Below, in pieces: positions 19,181 to 63,994 of a stretch of DNA of 64,000 bases. The stretch is from positions 1-64,000 of the forward strand of contig JAICYD010000011.1 in the NCBI GenBank assembly GCA_025934375.1, written 5' to 3'. Positions within the stretch are counted from its first letter, which is position 1, and every line of letters starts with the position of its first letter. This stretch comes from Streptosporangiaceae bacterium. Its GTDB lineage: Bacteria > Actinomycetota > Actinomycetes > Streptosporangiales > Streptosporangiaceae. Position numbers and translations under genes: made by a program. Under the pieces are notes generated by a model that saw only the letters and a list, made by a program, of their open reading frames with translations, had not been told where the DNA came from and did no database searches.

Positions 19181-19468
19181 TTGAGAGATGAGGGAGTGGA
19201 CGTGCTCACTGGGAGGTTGCGGCGGCTGGGAATGCCGGTGCTGGCGATGGCGCTGGCCGCCGCCACCATGACGTTCGTGGTCACGCGGGCGCCGGCCCGG
19301 GCGGACGTGACCACGGCCTCGCCGACCGGGAATGGCACGAGTGTCGCGGTGCTGGGCGGTGACTTCACCGGGGACGGGCAAGCGGACCTGGCGGTGACGG
19401 GGTCGTCGGGTTTCTCGTCGGTGCCGCTGGCGGCGTCGGCGGTGCGGTTTAACGGCGGTGCGGTTTAA
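19181..19468 (+). pseudogene. Truncated FG-GAP/VCBS-repeat secreted protein
   Basis: A 95-codon frame with a signal-like N-terminus (LTGRLRRLGMPVLAMALAAA, cleavage near ARA) followed by one start of an FG-GAP repeat (VLGGDFTGDGQADLAVTGSS), the calcium-binding beta-propeller motif of secreted actinobacterial proteins. Full-length members continue for hundreds of residues. Here the frame runs into the TTAA-containing tandem repeat and stops. The start is uncertain: TTG at 19181, GTG at 19196 or GTG at 19202. It is probably the remnant of a gene cut off when the methyltransferase 3' end and repeat came to lie here. Confidence 0.6.
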
Positions 19469-19526
19469 CGGCGGTGCGCTTAACGGCGGTGCGCTTAACG
19501 GCGGTGCGGGTTAAGGGCGGTGCGGA
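19439..19526. repeat. 15/16-bp tandem repeat carrying stop codons on both strands
   Basis: Five units of about GCGGTGCGSTTAACG, with TTAA at 19449, 19465, 19480, 19495 and 19511. Because TTAA contains TAA on each strand, every unit supplies a stop in both directions. The minus-strand methyltransferase ends in the fourth unit (tail NPHRR then TAA), and the plus-strand FG-GAP fragment ends in the second. Confidence 0.85.
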
Positions 19527-21856: not shown

Positions 21857-22933
21857 TTAGCGGCCCGGCCGCGGCCGCTCACGCAGCCTCGGCCGGGGCC
21901 TGGCCGCCGCCACCGGCGGCAGGTCAAGCCCGGGCACGACCCGGTTACGGACTGTGCCGATGCCCTCGACGGTCAGCTCGACCACGTCTCCCGCGCGCAG
22001 CGGCGGCGGGTCCACCCGGCCGTTACGGCCCCACAGTTCCCCCAGGCAGCCGCCGTTGCCGCAGGTGCCCGAGCCGAGCACGTCCCCGGCGCGGACCCAC
22101 GTCCCGCGCGAGGCGTACGCGATCAGCTCCTCGAACGGCCAGCCCATGTTGGACAGCAGGTCGTGGCCCACCTCGACGTCGTTCACGGACGCGGTCAGCT
22201 CCAGGGCGAGGAAGCCGTCGGCATCCCGGTACCGCGCCAGCTCGTCGGCGGTCACCAGCCACGGCCCGAGTGTCGTAGCCGAGTCCTTGCCCTTCGCGGG
22301 CCCGAGCATCACCCGCATCTCCCGCCGCTGCAGGTCCCGGGCCGACCAGTCGTTGAGGATCGTGTAGCCGAAAACGTGGGCGGCGGCCTGCTCCGGCGAC
22401 AGCGACGCGCCGTCGCGGCCGACGACGACGGCCACCTCGAGCTCGAAGTCGAGCATCCGCGATCCCGGGGGGACGGGGACATCGTCATAGGGCCCGACCA
22501 GCGCATAGGGGTTGGTGAAGTAGAACGTCGGCGCCTCATACCACTCCGGCACGACGCCCGCGACGTCCCCGACGCCGGCGCTCACCCCCTCGACGTGCTC
22601 CTCGAAGGCGACAAAGTCGCGGATCGTCGGCGCCTGCAGGGGCGGCAGCAGTCGTGCACCGCCGAGCGGCACGGCCGGCCCGCTCAGCGCGGCCGCCCCG
22701 GCCTCCAGCGCGGCGGGCAGCCCCGCGCGGACGAGGTCCAAGACGGTGACCCCCGGCGGCAGCGGGTGCAGGCCGTCCTCGCTGACCACGGCGGCGGCGG
22801 AGCCGCCAGTGCCGTCGGCACTGTCTTGACCGGCACTGTCTTGACCGGCACTGTCTTGACCGGCACTGTCTTGACCGGCACTGTCTTGACCGGCACGGCC
22901 TCCGTGGGCACTGCGGTACGTGGCGAATCGCAT
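21857..22933 (-). CDS. Fumarylacetoacetate hydrolase (FAH) family protein
   Basis: 358 residues. Members hydrolyse or decarboxylate acyl-pyruvates and 2-hydroxy-dienoates in aromatic breakdown. The FAH core is visible from about residue 100: DFVAFEEHVEG, LDFELEVAVVVG (metal-binding acidic residues), FGYTILNDWSARDLQRREM, KGKDSATTLGPWLVT and GDVLGSGTCGNG. The N-terminus contains five AGQDS repeats (positions 22816-22896) that are not part of the family fold. It lies 13 bp after the dioxygenase gene and 25 bp before the hydrolase-methylase gene. Confidence 0.88.
   Translation of the reverse strand: MRFATYRSAHGGRAGQDSAGQDSAGQDSAGQDSAGQDSADGTGGSAAAVVSEDGLHPLPPGVTVLDLVRAGLPAALEAGAAALSGPAVPLGGARLLPPLQAPTIRDFVAFEEHVEGVSAGVGDVAGVVPEWYEAPTFYFTNPYALVGPYDDVPVPPGSRMLDFELEVAVVVGRDGASLSPEQAAAHVFGYTILNDWSARDLQRREMRVMLGPAKGKDSATTLGPWLVTADELARYRDADGFLALELTASVNDVEVGHDLLSNMGWPFEELIAYASRGTWVRAGDVLGSGTCGNGGCLGELWGRNGRVDPPPLRAGDVVELTVEGIGTVRNRVVPGLDLPPVAAARPRPRLRERPRPGR
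22816..22896. repeat. 15-bp in-frame tandem repeat, five copies
   Basis: CGGCACTGTCTTGAC is repeated five times head to tail, plus a partial copy, encoding five AGQDS units at residues 14-38 of the FAH-family protein. The copies are essentially identical, so the expansion is recent. Confidence 0.92.
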
Positions 22934-41014: not shown

Positions 41015-41160
41015 TGACGACCTTGGGACGCGATGCTAGCTTGGTCCTGCATACTTCCCGCGCATGTGTACGTTCAGACCTTTCTTGATCTTCATATGGA
41101 GAACGCGCGAGCTGGTTGCCAGGCCGCGTGAGTAGATTGCGCTCGGGACTGGAGGGGGCC

Positions 41161-42417
41161 TTGAGCATCAGCGAGGACGAGGGCGAAAGGACGAGGGCGG
41201 CAACGTACGCGGGTCCGCCGTCCGCCGACGGCAGCATCCTTGATGCCGATGGCGCTGTCCTTGACGACGAGTTCGATGACACCGACGGAGGCTTCGAGGG
41301 CACCGGCGCCGGCCTGGAAGACGCCGGCCTGGAAGACGCAGGCCTGGAAGACGCAGGCCTGGAAGACACCGCCGCAGGCCTGGAAGACGCCGACAGGTCG
41401 GCGTCGTCGGCCACCAAGTGGGGGATGGCCGGGCTGCTCCTCGCATACGCCGGGCTCGGCGGCTACTGCCTGGTGTCCGCGCTCGGCCAGGGCACGGGAC
41501 CGGATCGCCCGCAGGGCGTGACCCGCAGCGTCACCACCGCGCTCGGCAAGTCGCCGGCCATCCCGGCCGCCAAGGCCCCGGCGGTCAAGGCGGAGGCGGG
41601 GGCACCGCGAGGTGGCGCCGCCGTCGCGGCGGTCGCGGGGTCGGCGGCCTCGTCCAACGCGATCATCACCGGGAAGGCGTATGCCGCGAAGGCGTTCGCG
41701 CGCGTGCACGCCGCTACTACGACGCCCAAGGTGGAAGCGCTGTCGGCGGTCAGCGCGACCGCGTTCGGCCCCCGGGGCGGCAACGGCGATCACCCGCAGA
41801 TAGCGCCCCTGGTCCTGGATGGCAACTCGGCGACCGCCTGGGTCACCCACTGGTACGCGTCGGCCCGCTTCGGCAACCTCAAGGACGGGACCGGGCTGGT
41901 CCTGGACATGGGCCGGGCGGTAACGATCCGGCGGGTCCAGCTGTCCCTCGGCGGCAGCCCCGGCTTTTGGGGCGCCGACATCCAGATCCGCGTCGGGAAC
42001 TCCTCAGGGGAGTGGAACTTCGCGCCCGCCGCGGTGGCCACCGACGTCGGCGGCTGGGTCGCGCCGGAACTGCGCACGCCGGTAACCGGGCGCTACGTGC
42101 AAATCTGGTTCACCAAGCTGCCGCGCGACTCATGGGGCACCTACCAAGAGCACGTCTACGGCGTCACCGTCCACGGCTTCGCCCCGGCGGCCAGCGCCGA
42201 GCCCAGCACGTCCTCTCCCGTCCGCACCACCCGCCACACTGGACATGCGGGCATCGGCCAGCCCGGCGGCGGTCACCCGGGTGGCGGCCCGCATTCGCCC
42301 GGTGCCGCGTACCCGGGGCACGGCGCCCACCCCGGCGGCGGCCATGGCCCCGGCGGCCATGGCGGTGCAGGCCACGGCCATGACGGCGGTCCCGGTCACG
42401 GGGGACGTGGCCGCTGA
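41161..42417 (+). CDS. Membrane-anchored discoidin-like protein with Gly/His-rich tail (paralogue 1)
   Basis: 418 residues from a TTG at 41161 with GGAGG five bases upstream. The N-terminus MSISEDEGE matches the context of its tandem neighbour, which also starts at TTG. Order of parts: acidic cytoplasmic region with five GLEDA repeats, one membrane span (about residues 85-103, MAGLLLAYAGLGGYCLVSAL), an Ala-rich linker, then an extracellular F5/8 type C (discoidin)-like beta-sandwich (VLDGNSATAWVTHWYAS, LVLDMGRAVTIRRVQLSL, GRYVQIWFTKLP). The last 60 residues are a Gly/His/Pro-rich tail with many HPGGGH-type blocks, which might bind metal. Ligand and role are unknown. Confidence 0.75.
   Translation: MSISEDEGERTRAATYAGPPSADGSILDADGAVLDDEFDDTDGGFEGTGAGLEDAGLEDAGLEDAGLEDTAAGLEDADRSASSATKWGMAGLLLAYAGLGGYCLVSALGQGTGPDRPQGVTRSVTTALGKSPAIPAAKAPAVKAEAGAPRGGAAVAAVAGSAASSNAIITGKAYAAKAFARVHAATTTPKVEALSAVSATAFGPRGGNGDHPQIAPLVLDGNSATAWVTHWYASARFGNLKDGTGLVLDMGRAVTIRRVQLSLGGSPGFWGADIQIRVGNSSGEWNFAPAAVATDVGGWVAPELRTPVTGRYVQIWFTKLPRDSWGTYQEHVYGVTVHGFAPAASAEPSTSSPVRTTRHTGHAGIGQPGGGHPGGGPHSPGAAYPGHGAHPGGGHGPGGHGGAGHGHDGGPGHGGRGR
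41311..41391. repeat. 15-bp in-frame tandem repeat (GLEDA)
   Basis: Four contiguous copies of GGCCTGGAAGACGCA or a close variant, then a fifth after a 6-bp break, encoding GLEDA units in the acidic N-terminal region of the first discoidin-like protein. The unit keeps the frame. Confidence 0.9.
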
Positions 42418-42595
42418 CGTCGTGCGTGCCTGACCAGGCACGGAAACCCGGATTCGGGCATATCGAAGCCGCTGATACCGATAGATTTCTGCGGGAGTGC
42501 GGTAGTAGCGGGACGCCTGGCGACTGTGCTGTTGAAGTGAGTCCTGCATGCGCAGGTTCACGGAAAGTGTCCCAGGCAAAGGAGGGCAGCGGACC

Positions 42596-44695
42596 TTGAG
42601 GTTCGGCGAGCACGAGGATATCGGCCACCATGGCGGTGACCGGTGGTTCGACTCGTCCCCGCGTTCCGGGGGCATCGGGGGCGATGACCCCGATCCAGCG
42701 ATCGAGGAGGCTCCCGACACGTCGTTCTCGACCCCGCCCGAGCCGACCGAGTCTGCCCGCGCCCACGAGCCCGCGCTCTCGCAGGGCACCGTGCTCTCGG
42801 AGGGCACAACATTCTCAGAGGGCACAACATTCTCAGAAAGCAGTGCGTTCTCGGAGGGCACCGCAGCCTCCAATCCGACTGTGTTCACCGGCCCCGCGAC
42901 GCGCGTGGAGAACCCCGCCTTGGTGGAGCCCGCCGCGCCTGCCGCGCTTCCGGTGCGCCCCCGGCGGGCTAAGCACGCCGCCCAGCCCCCCGCGCCCGCT
43001 GCCCTTCCTGAGCCCGCCGGACCTGGCCTGCCCGCGGGCTCCGGCGCATCGTGGTTCGACCCGTCCTCTCGCCCGGAACCCGTCCAGCCAAGCTGGGACA
43101 CGCCCGATCCCGCCCCCGCCTGGGGCACCCAGTCCCCGGGCACCGAGTCCCCGGCCCGGGAAGGCGAGCCCCCCGCCTGGGAAACCGAATCCCCGGCTGG
43201 ATACACCGACCCGTCTCCCACTCGTGCCGAGCCCCTCCTGCGCAATCCCCCCACTCGCGCCGACCCGCTCCTTAGCAATCCCCCTACCCGCGCCGACCCG
43301 CTGCTCAGCAACCCCCCCACTCGCGCCGACCCGCTCCTTAGCAATCCCCCTACCCGCGCCGACCCGCTGCTCAGCAATCCCCCTACCCGCGCCGACCCGC
43401 TCCTGCGCGAGGCGCCCACCCGCGCCGACCCGCGGCTGCGGGACGCTCCCACCCGCGCTGATCCCCTTCTCCGCGGCGGCGACACCTTCTCCAGGGACGG
43501 TGACTTCCGGGACAGCGACGGCTTCCCGCCGGCCGTCGACGGCCTCGGCCGCGATGGCGCGCGACGAACCCCGCCGCTCGCGCCGACTGACACGCCCCCG
43601 CGCGGTGAGCAGGCCTCCAGTTCCTGGGCGGGCGTGACCCGCGGCCGCCCCCCGGTCGCGGACAGCCCGCCGTCCGGGGCCGACGTCAATCCGGGCAGAA
43701 GGAACGCCCCTCCCTGGTCCACCATGCCCGTCGAGATCGGGCCCGGGATCGGGATACCCGCAGGCGAGACCGGGCCGGACGGCACCGCCAGCGGCACTCC
43801 CTTCGCCGGGGCACGGCTCGCGGGCTTCAGCGCCCCCGGCGCGACGCAGGCCGCCCAGTCGGGGACGCCGCGTCCCTTCCGGGGCGCGGATACCGGCAAC
43901 TTCCGCCGCCAGGGCCAAGACACCGGGGCGTTCCGCCGGATCCGGGACACCGGCGCGATGCGCGCCATCATGGATACCGGCGCGATGCGCGCCATCATGG
44001 ACACCGGCGCGATGCGCTCGCTCATGGACACCGCGGCGTTCCAGGCGCTGCGCGACCGCTACGCGGGCAAAGGCCGGGTGATCGCGGCCATCGTGATCGC
44101 CGGCTGGGTGGTGCTCGCCGGGGTCGGCATGTTCCTGGCCTTCGGCTTGCGCAGCGAGGGCGACAGTGCGACCGCCAGCGCAAATCCCACGGCCCGCCCC
44201 ACCCATCCGGCCACCGCGCCGGGCAGCAAGGCCGGAACGAAGGTCACCTCACCCGCGACGGTCGGTACGCTGCCGGTGGCCAAGGTCATCGCCTGGGGGC
44301 CGACCGGAGCGAGCACCGCCGAGCACCCGGAGCAGGCCGCCCGCGCCGTCGACGCGAGCGCCGCGACCGCCTGGCACTCGAAGTGGTACATGAAGCCGGC
44401 CTTCCCCGGCGTCGGCCTCGTCCTCGACATGGGCAAGACCGTGACCGTCACCGAAATCAAGCTCAAGCTCGCCCAAGGCGATGCCGATTTCCTCATCCGA
44501 GTCGGGAACACCGCCAAGCCGGGCACCTTGACCAAGGTCGCCGCGCGCAGCCACACGGGCGGCGACGTGACGATTAAGCTCGCCAAGCCGTCCCGCGGCC
44601 GCTACGTAGAGCTGTGGATCACCCGGCTGCCGAGGGACTCCTCCGGCACCTACCAGGAATCGGTCTACAACGTCCAGGTCACCGGCCTGGCGTAG
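42596..44695 (+). CDS. Membrane-anchored discoidin-like protein with PTRADPLLSNP and DTGAM repeats (paralogue 2)
   Basis: 699 residues from a TTG at 42596, preceded by AAAGGAGGGC. A long cytoplasmic, Pro/Ala/Ser/Thr-rich region holds eight 11-residue PTRADPLLSNP-type repeats (43217-43480) and, near the membrane, three 9-residue DTGAMRAIM repeats within a longer run of DTG motifs. One membrane span follows (about residues 500-520, VIAAIVIAGWVVLAGVGMFL), then a discoidin-like domain (AVDASAATAWHSKWYM, LVLDMGKTVTVTEIKLKL, GRYVELWITRLPRDSSGTYQ). Its extracellular domain is clearly homologous to paralogue 1, so the pair arose by duplication. The periodic threonines might be kinase sites. Function is unknown. 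Confidence 0.78.
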   Translation: MRFGEHEDIGHHGGDRWFDSSPRSGGIGGDDPDPAIEEAPDTSFSTPPEPTESARAHEPALSQGTVLSEGTTFSEGTTFSESSAFSEGTAASNPTVFTGPATRVENPALVEPAAPAALPVRPRRAKHAAQPPAPAALPEPAGPGLPAGSGASWFDPSSRPEPVQPSWDTPDPAPAWGTQSPGTESPAREGEPPAWETESPAGYTDPSPTRAEPLLRNPPTRADPLLSNPPTRADPLLSNPPTRADPLLSNPPTRADPLLSNPPTRADPLLREAPTRADPRLRDAPTRADPLLRGGDTFSRDGDFRDSDGFPPAVDGLGRDGARRTPPLAPTDTPPRGEQASSSWAGVTRGRPPVADSPPSGADVNPGRRNAPPWSTMPVEIGPGIGIPAGETGPDGTASGTPFAGARLAGFSAPGATQAAQSGTPRPFRGADTGNFRRQGQDTGAFRRIRDTGAMRAIMDTGAMRAIMDTGAMRSLMDTAAFQALRDRYAGKGRVIAAIVIAGWVVLAGVGMFLAFGLRSEGDSATASANPTARPTHPATAPGSKAGTKVTSPATVGTLPVAKVIAWGPTGASTAEHPEQAARAVDASAATAWHSKWYMKPAFPGVGLVLDMGKTVTVTEIKLKLAQGDADFLIRVGNTAKPGTLTKVAARSHTGGDVTIKLAKPSRGRYVELWITRLPRDSSGTYQESVYNVQVTGLA
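43217..43480. repeat. 33-bp in-frame tandem repeat, eight copies
   Basis: Eight contiguous 33-bp units encode PTRADPLLSNP and variants (ends RNP, SNP, REA, RDA, RGG). The central four are nearly identical at DNA level; the flanking ones are diverged, as expected for expansion from the middle. Confidence 0.92.
43946..44041. repeat. 27-bp in-frame repeat (DTGAMRAIM)
   Basis: Three contiguous 27-bp units encode DTGAMRAIM, DTGAMRAIM and DTGAMRSLM, then a partial DTAAF. Related DTGNFRR and DTGAFRR motifs come just before. Confidence 0.85.
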
Positions 44696-47035: not shown

Positions 47036-48142
47036 ATGGCGTTCGACGAGTTGCACCGGCATGTCGCCCGGATCGCGCTGATGGCGGCCGGCCGCAAGTA
47101 CGGGGTGGCGCTCGCCGGCGGGAACGCGCTCATGGTGCACGAGGTGGTGAGCCGGCACACCGAGGACGTTGACCTGTTCGTGCGGCGGCTTGGCAACGTC
47201 GCCCCGGCGGCGGCAGAGATCCAGGCTGCCCTCGAAGCCGCCGGGTACGCCACCGAGCGGCTCGACGCGGCCGACGCCGGGGGACTCGGTGACCTGTGGC
47301 CCGAGGCCGGCGAGGAACTCGCCGAATGGGAGGTCACCACCCCCGACGGCGAGCACACCGTGCAGGTCCAGGTCGCCTACTTCGAGACGCTGGCCGACCC
47401 GGTAACGGTGCCCGACCTCGGCCCGGTCCTCGCGCTGGAAGACCTGGCCGGCTGGAAGACGGTGGCGCTCGCCAACCGCATGGCGGCGCGCGACTACGTG
47501 GACATCGCCCAGCTGCTCAAGCAGTACACGGTGCCGGAGCTGATCGCGCTGGCGCTCGAGCGCGATCCCGGCCTGCACCCGGCCGACTTCGCCGACGCCG
47601 GGCGGCACCTGGACCAGATGCGCGACTCGCGGCTCGCGGCGCTGCTCACCGGGCTGGACGGCGAGGACGCCGCCTGGCTGCGCGCGCAGTTCGCCGCCTG
47701 GCCCCGCGCCGCCGCTCCCCGGGACGAGCCGTTACCAGCGGCCGTCCTCATGTCGGCGACGCCGGGAGCGCCCGCGCCCCCGGCGCGCAGGCGCAGTCCC
47801 CGCATTGATCGTGATTGGGTTCTGAAGGCTCATTGCGATTGCGATCTCCGCGCGATACCGTCAGCCCGAACATTCACCGGATATACGGTCAAATGTTCAG
47901 ATTTAGTAAATAAGCGTGGCGTTTCGGGGAGACGATATGCGCGTCAGGGCACGGGGACAGGTGGCGGACGGCGACAGGTCCAAGCGCGGCAGGTGGCCGG
48001 TGATGGCGTTGCTCGCCGCGACGCTGTCCCTCGGATTCACGCTCATTCCTCTCGGCGCGGCGTCGGCGCAGGTCGCAGCGGCGACCCCGCCCTCAGCGGC
48101 GACGACAGCGCCGGGCGCCGGGAGCAGCGCGCCAGCGAATAA
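47036..48142 (+). CDS. AbiEii/AbiGii-type nucleotidyltransferase, 3' end extended
   Basis: 368-codon frame. The N-terminal about 235 residues form a nucleotidyltransferase of the AbiEii/toxin type: GVALAGGNALMVHEVVSRHT followed by EDVDLFVRR (GG and DxD), then LEDLAGWKTVALANRMAARDYVDI with the typical Lys and (R)D..DI elements. AbiEii proteins act as toxins of abortive-infection/type IV systems by transferring nucleotides. The coding character fades after about 47800, where DNA becomes AT-richer and promoter-like. The frame then runs 206 bp into the next gene, so the true stop seems lost or frameshifted. Only the N-terminal part can be trusted. Confidence 0.75.
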   Translation: MAFDELHRHVARIALMAAGRKYGVALAGGNALMVHEVVSRHTEDVDLFVRRLGNVAPAAAEIQAALEAAGYATERLDAADAGGLGDLWPEAGEELAEWEVTTPDGEHTVQVQVAYFETLADPVTVPDLGPVLALEDLAGWKTVALANRMAARDYVDIAQLLKQYTVPELIALALERDPGLHPADFADAGRHLDQMRDSRLAALLTGLDGEDAAWLRAQFAAWPRAAAPRDEPLPAAVLMSATPGAPAPPARRRSPRIDRDWVLKAHCDCDLRAIPSARTFTGYTVKCSDLVNKRGVSGRRYARQGTGTGGGRRQVQARQVAGDGVARRDAVPRIHAHSSRRGVGAGRSGDPALSGDDSAGRREQRASE

Positions 48143-63091: not shown

Positions 63092-63994
63092 TCACCCATA
63101 CTGGTTCGGGCCGGGGGCGGGCGCCTCGCACATGGCGACGAGCAGCAAGATGGGGCCGACGATCGGGATCAGGCTCATCCAGTAGTACCAGCCGGACCGG
63201 CCGGTGTCGTGCAGGCGGCGCACCATCGCGCCCAGGGCGGGCAGGTAGATGGCGAACATGATCAGGAAGCCGAACGCGAACAGGCCGATGCTGTTGCTGT
63301 TCACCAGGATCAGGTACAGGATGAAGTTCACTGCGCCGGTGGCGAGCGCCAGCCACCAGTACGCCGACCGGGACGCGCGGCCCCGCCAGGTGAACGTGTT
63401 CTTGAGGCCCTCGGTGACCGCCTGGCCGAAGCTCACCGGAGCGCCTGCTAGGTAGGTCCCCGGCGCGGCGGGCGACGCGCCCATGCCGGCCGGGTAAGGG
63501 CCGTACGCGCCGGCGGCCTGGCCGTAGCCAGCCTGGCCGTACTGCGGCGTTGCCTGGCCGTACGCCGGAGCCTGGCCGTACTGGGGCGTCGGCTGGCCGT
63601 ACTGCGGGGTGGCCTGCCCGTACGCGGGCGCCTGCTGGCCGTACTGCGGCGTTGCCTGGCCGTACTGCGGTGTCGACTGGCCGTACTGCGGCGTGGACTG
63701 GCCGTACTGCGGCGTGGACTGGCCATATGCCGGAGCCTGGCCGTACTGCGGCGTGGACTGACCGTACTGGGGCTGCGCGGACTGGCCGTACTGGGGCGTC
63801 GGCTGGCCGTACTGCGGCGTGGACTGGCCGTACTGGGGCTGCGCGGACTGGCCGTATTGCCCCTGCGGCTGACCGGGCTGCGCCTGCTGGCCGCCCTGCC
63901 CGAACTGCGGTGCCGGCGCGAACTGCGTCGCGTCGTACTGCCCGCCCTGCCCGCCCTCGTTCGGGTCTGGCTGGTACCCGTAGGGAGTACTCAC
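63092..63994 (-). CDS. DUF805 membrane protein with PQYGQ-repeat N-terminus
   Basis: 300 residues, GTG start at 63994, six bases from the window edge, so its promoter is not seen. Residues 1 to about 165 are a low-complexity tract of PQYGQ and PAYGQ repeats, Gln/Tyr/Gly/Pro-rich, probably unstructured and cytoplasmic. The rest is a DUF805 domain with four membrane spans: TWRGRASRSAYWWLA, VNFILYLILVNSNSIGLFAF, RRLHDTGRSGWYYWMSLIP and IVGPILLLVAMCE. Function unknown. The Tyr-rich tract resembles phase-separating low-complexity regions. Confidence 0.85.
   Translation of the reverse strand: MSTPYGYQPDPNEGGQGGQYDATQFAPAPQFGQGGQQAQPGQPQGQYGQSAQPQYGQSTPQYGQPTPQYGQSAQPQYGQSTPQYGQAPAYGQSTPQYGQSTPQYGQSTPQYGQATPQYGQQAPAYGQATPQYGQPTPQYGQAPAYGQATPQYGQAGYGQAAGAYGPYPAGMGASPAAPGTYLAGAPVSFGQAVTEGLKNTFTWRGRASRSAYWWLALATGAVNFILYLILVNSNSIGLFAFGFLIMFAIYLPALGAMVRRLHDTGRSGWYYWMSLIPIVGPILLLVAMCEAPAPGPNQYG
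63500..63880. repeat. Imperfect coding repeats (TGGCCGTACTGSGGCG units)
   Basis: About 20 imperfect copies of 15-24-bp units with a TGGCCGTACTG core encode the PQYGQ/PAYGQ tract. All unit sizes are multiples of three. Confidence 0.85.

Follow-up and report, generated by a model that had tools for sequence, protein, structure and literature searches.

Tandem membrane proteins with discoidin-type outer domains and repeat-rich inner heads: possible wall anchors in a Streptosporangiaceae bacterium

How actinobacteria couple the state of the wall to cytosolic regulation is only partly understood. In the best-described related system, MviN is phosphorylated by PknB, the phosphorylated tail of its pseudokinase domain recruits FhaA, and the same protein carries a carbohydrate-binding domain, according to the excerpted text of PMC12599244. 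Here we describe two adjacent open reading frames (ORFs), ORF1 and ORF2, in the genome of a Streptosporangiaceae bacterium (assembly GCA_025934375.1); the window analysed is the whole stretch of 64,000 nucleotides at positions 1 to 64,000 of contig JAICYD010000011.1. Like Mycobacterium tuberculosis MviN, which we take to be locus tag Rv3910, in both products a single membrane span is followed by an outer F5/8 type C-like domain, the likeness of the outer domains being one of description; unlike it, they lack a kinase-like head, and murJ, the gene of a cell-wall precursor flippase, is not next to their genes.

Two further groups of proteins frame the comparison. Membrane proteins with an HTH_25 head (presumably the RodZ domain) are represented in this genome by a paralogue with one span and the same outer domain, but ORF1 and ORF2 have no HTH_25. 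CBM32 and other F5/8 type C modules share the predicted fold of the ORF2 outer domain, whereas the domains of ORF1 and ORF2 are membrane-tethered instead of belonging to a secreted enzyme. We tentatively read ORF1 and ORF2 as tandem paralogues that serve as wall-side CBM32/discoidin anchors with a variable cytosolic head for docking partners inside, a reading to which we give somewhat less than an even chance; wall anchoring is the most likely role of the pair.

The two genes and their outer domains

The sole orthologous ORF1/ORF2 pair found lies at locus L093, in the Streptosporangiaceae metagenome-assembled genome GZL_ISSM_2_bin.89; contig G003:C821 has the same content, and the two are counted as one pair. 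The features of the locus are as follows.

41151..41158, + strand: probable ORF1 ribosome-binding site GGAGGGGG, purine-rich, identical in the L093 orthologue
41161..42417, + strand: ORF1, 418 aa, with an acidic inner head, one span, an outer F5/8 type C domain and a Gly/His-rich tail
41307..41392, + strand: GLEDA repeats of ORF1, 15-nt period (Tandem Repeats Finder)
41419..41487, + strand: predicted ORF1 membrane span, of weak hydrophobicity
41740..42189, + strand: ORF1 outer F5/8 type C (discoidin/CBM32-like) domain (Pfam PF00754, 39.1 bits, cut-off 28.2)
42235..42414, + strand: Gly/His-rich C-terminal tail of ORF1 (translation; 11 His and 28 Gly in the last 70 residues)
42578..42586, + strand: probable ORF2 ribosome-binding site AAAGGAGGG, purine-rich, identical in the L093 orthologue
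42596..44695, + strand: ORF2, 699 aa, with a long low-complexity inner head, one span and an outer F5/8 type C domain
43217..43466, + strand: PTRA[DE]P array of ORF2, eight 11-residue units (Tandem Repeats Finder and motif count)
43889..44053, + strand: DT[GA]x[FM] array, six units at mostly 9-residue spacing, directly before the ORF2 span (motif count)
44078..44146, + strand: predicted ORF2 membrane span (hydrophobicity scan of the orthologue)
44261..44692, + strand: ORF2 outer F5/8 type C (discoidin/CBM32-like) domain (Pfam PF00754, 32.0 bits, cut-off 28.2; AlphaFold2 (AF2) model and match to 7d2a described below)

Translation places the start of both ORFs at TTG, and the L093 orthologues keep both TTGs together with the sequence immediately 5′ of them. 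An ATG at 42548 was ruled out as the start of ORF2, because one additional base in L093 shifts it out of frame, which supports TTG 42596. In comparison with the orthologues, the ratio of nonsynonymous to synonymous substitution rates (dN/dS) is 0.395 for ORF1 over 403 aligned codons and 0.414 for ORF2 over 646, with third-position changes the most frequent in each (58 of 117 and 74 of 152, respectively); both are therefore real genes, whose frames appear by this measure to be under purifying selection overall. Each orthologue has one hydrophobic span, weak in ORF1 (Kyte-Doolittle 1.62) and clear in ORF2 (2.65). The outer domains are homologous, at 42% identity over 149 columns (E 5e-33). The TTG starts, single predicted spans and related outer domains proposed by the initial annotation are all borne out.

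No Pfam domain other than F5/8 type C was found in either protein. The match is stronger for the isolated domain than for the whole protein, where it reaches 35.7 bits in ORF1 and 27.1 bits, just under the cut-off, in ORF2. The ORF2 domain, the one that was modelled, gave an AF2 model with a mean predicted local distance difference test score (pLDDT) of 94.9 and the beta-sandwich (jelly-roll) fold of the F5/8 type C family. CBM32 modules rank first in a Foldseek search with this model, and a second structure aligner returned CBM32 7d2a at Z 17.0 (123 residues, 2.2 Å, 18% identity) and a chitosan-binding module at Z 16.9; Z was at least 8 in 366 of 982 aligned chains, with CBM32 in the top rows. 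Structure prediction, which had been put forward as a check on the suggested discoidin likeness, thus agrees with the Pfam result, and the outer domain is predicted to be discoidin-like at the level of fold.

Heads are exchanged or absent on one outer domain

A search of the genome revealed two more clear outer-domain proteins besides ORF1 and ORF2, and four further places that match the domain at E 0.26-0.99. The first paralogue has a pseudokinase-like head and lies between murJ, immediately upstream, and a sigma-70 gene, immediately downstream. By eye, this head lacks the usual kinase motifs; it matches the structures 3otv, 3uqc and 3oun at about E 5e-14, and PknA and PknB structures as well or slightly better (best E 2.3e-17). 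We take the 3otv and 3oun chains to be MviN. The excerpted text of PMC12599244 identifies 3UQC as the MviN pseudokinase. The second paralogue (L055:6306-7787, contig G000:C198) sits between purK and purE and joins an HTH_25 head (67.6 bits) through one span to the same outer domain. A head of the DNA-binding type is thus joined to a wall-side domain in a protein encoded among purine genes; a literature search for a discoidin domain with RodZ in Actinobacteria found no paper.

Across this genome and 40 relatives, the outer domain is matched at 1e-5 in 37 of the 41. Named genomes yielded 177 stretches that fit the pattern and, from these, 127 relatives; the best 80 of these 127 loci contain 82 family ORFs: 56 with a pseudokinase head, 14 with a helix-turn-helix (HTH) head and 12 with neither. 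Five of these last 12 are cut by a contig end, which leaves 7 of the 82 complete without a recognised head, including the L093 pair; at L093 there was no match to the pseudokinase hidden Markov model, to HTH_25 or to murJ. Neighbourhoods were counted over 120 single-class loci from both sources, some of them fetched twice. Of the pseudokinase loci, 74 of 78 have murJ nearby and 75 of 78 a sigma gene, and purE and purK are near 8 and 9 of the 24 HTH loci, respectively. The outer domain is that of a common family in actinobacteria, with a pseudokinase branch that adjoins murJ; across this family the heads carried on the one outer domain are exchanged or absent. The description of ORF1 and ORF2 as an undescribed sensing or anchoring pair was, in this light, too strong.

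Several individual loci deserve mention. Purine-side loci with the HTH-span-discoidin arrangement, besides L055, are L039, L045, L046, L053, L108, L111 and L116, with L053/L116 and L039/L108 looking like the same loci fetched twice. A pseudokinase-headed protein at L100:291-2168 has an outer domain 51% identical to that of ORF1; its contig of 4.1 kb showed neither murJ nor a sigma gene, and the protein is a possible head swap. In the window, a SpoU methylase gene lies upstream of the pair, and PRiA4_ORF3 followed by purC lies downstream; another genus member likewise has a headless relative close to a gene of the SpoU methylase kind (L042, G002:C393; this contig seems to be identical to that of the named Trebonia sp. 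locus L112/L118), which suggests that the chromosomal slot of ORF1 and ORF2 is old.

Two trees place these proteins only in part. For the first, a third of the pseudokinase rows from named genomes was retained, and rows that were duplicates or shorter than 100 aa were removed; for the second, one in four of the named-genome pseudokinase rows from L114 on was kept, and L071, L075 and L133 were also dropped. Alignment A3 covers 47 of the 80 named-genome loci; W38, Y43, G50, G52, Y115 and W119 of the outer domain are conserved in it. In the second tree the pseudokinase rows form nearly one group, with 2 changes against a shuffled mean of 24.5, and HTH and headless rows interleave, with 10 and 9 changes; because several of the headless rows are truncated by contig ends, the count of head losses is overstated. 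The ORF1 outer domain groups among HTH and headless rows in the first tree, and the sister grouping of ORF1 with ORF2 in the second is weakly supported (80/38). The proposal of a duplicated pair therefore stands as tandem paralogy on adjacency and sequence identity, while the sister relation that it implies does not emerge from a resolved tree.

Inner repeats and the readings they allow

The three repeat arrays (Tandem Repeats Finder scores for the repeat arrays 315, 157 and 109) behave differently between the two genomes. ORF2 holds eight PTRA[DE]P units, one PTRAEP and seven PTRADP, against four in its orthologue, and ORF1 holds five GLED copies against no exact copy, so these arrays change in number; the DT[GA]x[FM] array numbers six units in each genome. 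The expansion of inner repeats that had been proposed is thus seen for PTRAD and GLED and not for DTG. Of the copy numbers given at the outset, the eightfold PTRA[DE]P count is right, with the exact form PTRADPLLSNP in four units; exact DTGAMRAIM occurs twice, alongside one DTGAMRSLM and three more degenerate units. Within this genome the in-frame triple DTG pattern is confined to ORF2: the pattern occurs at five places, three overlapping in ORF2 and two on contig C18 with a 43-base spacing that cannot stay in frame. A query of the array plus span matched 6 of 150 family genomes, at full length in two (this genome and G003) and partially in four; these partial matches, like a second place in this genome, fall in other proteins. 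The DTG array is accordingly ruled out as a family-wide feature. We note, as a separate observation, that a different genus of the same family has an open frame of 1605 aa with abundant DTGGF-type repeats (L080, G009:C47). A literature search for the DTG repeat or discoidin in Streptosporangiaceae or Actinobacteria gave nothing relevant among the matches listed; any judgement of whether the pair is already in print extends as far as this search and the one on discoidin and RodZ.

We read ORF1 and ORF2 as a local, fast-changing, lineage-specific branch that keeps the wall-side domain and uses disordered repeats as its inner head. The head would lie inside the cell, and the outer domain would bind cell-wall glycan, thereby anchoring the protein to the wall or sensing wall state. 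Inside, the head would dock a partner by analogy with MviN, the regularly spaced threonines of ORF2 offering possible PASTA-kinase/FHA docking sites, and ORF1 may be a partner of ORF2 or a simple anchor. The Gly/His tail of ORF1 may bind metal, as the initial annotation proposed; what is seen is that its composition persists in the orthologue. The genome has PASTA-domain matches on two contigs and 14 FHA matches. In the ORF2 repeats, D stands at +3 in T-R-A-D and M at +3 in T-G-A-M, and excerpts of PMC5549992 place D and M among the reported FHA residues three positions after phosphothreonine (pT+3). Docking through the repeat threonines, and the possible kinase targeting of the DTG threonines raised by the initial annotation, are, as judged from motif content, compatible with these proteins and preferences.

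A more ambitious version of this reading, improbable in our estimate, is an adaptor family that keeps one wall-reading outer domain and swaps heads (pseudokinase, RodZ-like HTH, phospho-threonine strip or none), so as to wire one wall signal to flippase control, the purine operon neighbourhood or FHA docking; ORF2 would then represent the phospho-strip, a platform that binds FHA domains multivalently and is tuned through the number of repeats.

The strongest competitor, which we regard as a serious though less than probable alternative, is that the heads have no specific function: ORF1 and ORF2 would be redundant wall anchors that have lost an HTH or pseudokinase head, after which their inner parts would be free to drift and to expand through replication slippage. 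The PTRAD and GLED differences between orthologues, the head dN/dS values (0.593 in ORF1 and 0.545 in ORF2, each above the value for the whole gene) and the existence of complete family members without a recognised head all favour drift, but the PTRAD units common to both genomes show little amino-acid change (dN 0.017, dS 0.243) and the six DT units are kept in both.

Several observations weigh against wall anchors with a docking head. The repeats may be products of slippage, the PTRAD copy number differing twofold between two genomes. The 68-codon segment that holds the DTG array has no amino-acid change relative to the orthologue, but this is weak evidence of constraint because dS there is also low: across 43868-44692 dS is unusually low, at 0.04 in the DTG segment and 0.047 in the ORF2 outer domain, as against 0.14-0.27 in the remaining segments of the two genes; dN/dS in the ORF2 outer domain is 0.894. 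Among the 28 threonines of the ORF2 head that lie outside the repeats, only 3 have D, I, L, V or M at +3, below the 19% head background, and since these threonines show no bias, the FHA-like pattern comes only from the repeats. A single-sequence model of the ORF2 juxtamembrane stretch plus outer domain reached pLDDT 54.3, and we make no structural claim for the DTG array. Approximately unbiased (AU) tests reject neither ORF2 with the pseudokinase branch (p 0.385), leaving ORF2 unplaced, nor all non-pseudokinase rows as one clade (p 0.418). Ligand, phosphorylation and interaction are all at the level of prediction.

It is unlikely, in our view, that the pair serves extracellular adhesion or substrate binding, with outer CBM32-type domains that bind environmental polysaccharide and an ORF1 Gly/His tail that binds metal. 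The nearest solved structures do include CBM32 modules titled with alginate-type, chitosan and galactose ligands, and the tail composition persists, with 13 His in the last 70 residues of the orthologue; however, the main branch of the family is tied to murJ rather than to carbohydrate use, and the modest linker after the single span makes reach past a thick wall doubtful.

The idea that the ORF2 head is a polar scaffold working with DivIVA/Wag31 is very improbable. In its favour, the PTRAD array gives a match to Wag31 model NF050102 (E 3.8e-6), and PTR[AV]DP occurs in just one other plausible frame of the genome, that of a membrane protein gene adjoining divIVA. Against it, the model scores 27 bits where its cut-off is 260, a match that probably reflects a common 11-residue periodicity; the array matches two DivIVA-like places at E 0.07 and 0.14; a reversed-pattern control yields about as many hits (1 and 2) as the two further PTRADP places; and PTRADP is absent from the divIVA-side proteins of the two relatives read. 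We therefore set aside the Wag31 match as homology and PTRADP as a motif common to the divIVA-side protein; 3 of 10 loci were read in this comparison, one from this genome, a C.PCRAC filter having dropped the other seven. In the membrane protein specified by that divIVA-side gene (L204:865-2502, G000:C118), repeats of PTRADPVL, PTRVDIS and SGDTALSG recall the ORF2 head.

Elsewhere in the window, an AbiEii-type nucleotidyltransferase domain (PF08843, 44.4 bits) lies at 47036-48142, a reverse-strand ORF near the right end (63092-63994) contains tandem repeats with units of 21 and 105 bases (63499-63893), and shorter arrays occur at 19437-19525 (16 bases, 5.7 copies) and 22816-22896 (15 bases, 5.4 copies).

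Implications for the family

The excerpted text of PMC12599244 describes ActPs3 pseudokinases other than M. tuberculosis MviN as having no carbohydrate-binding domain; if the pseudokinase heads found here are ActPs3, that statement, as far as the excerpt goes, looks too narrow. A family that combines one wall-side domain with exchanged heads would offer natural constructs for working out which ligand outside and which partner inside are the important ones.

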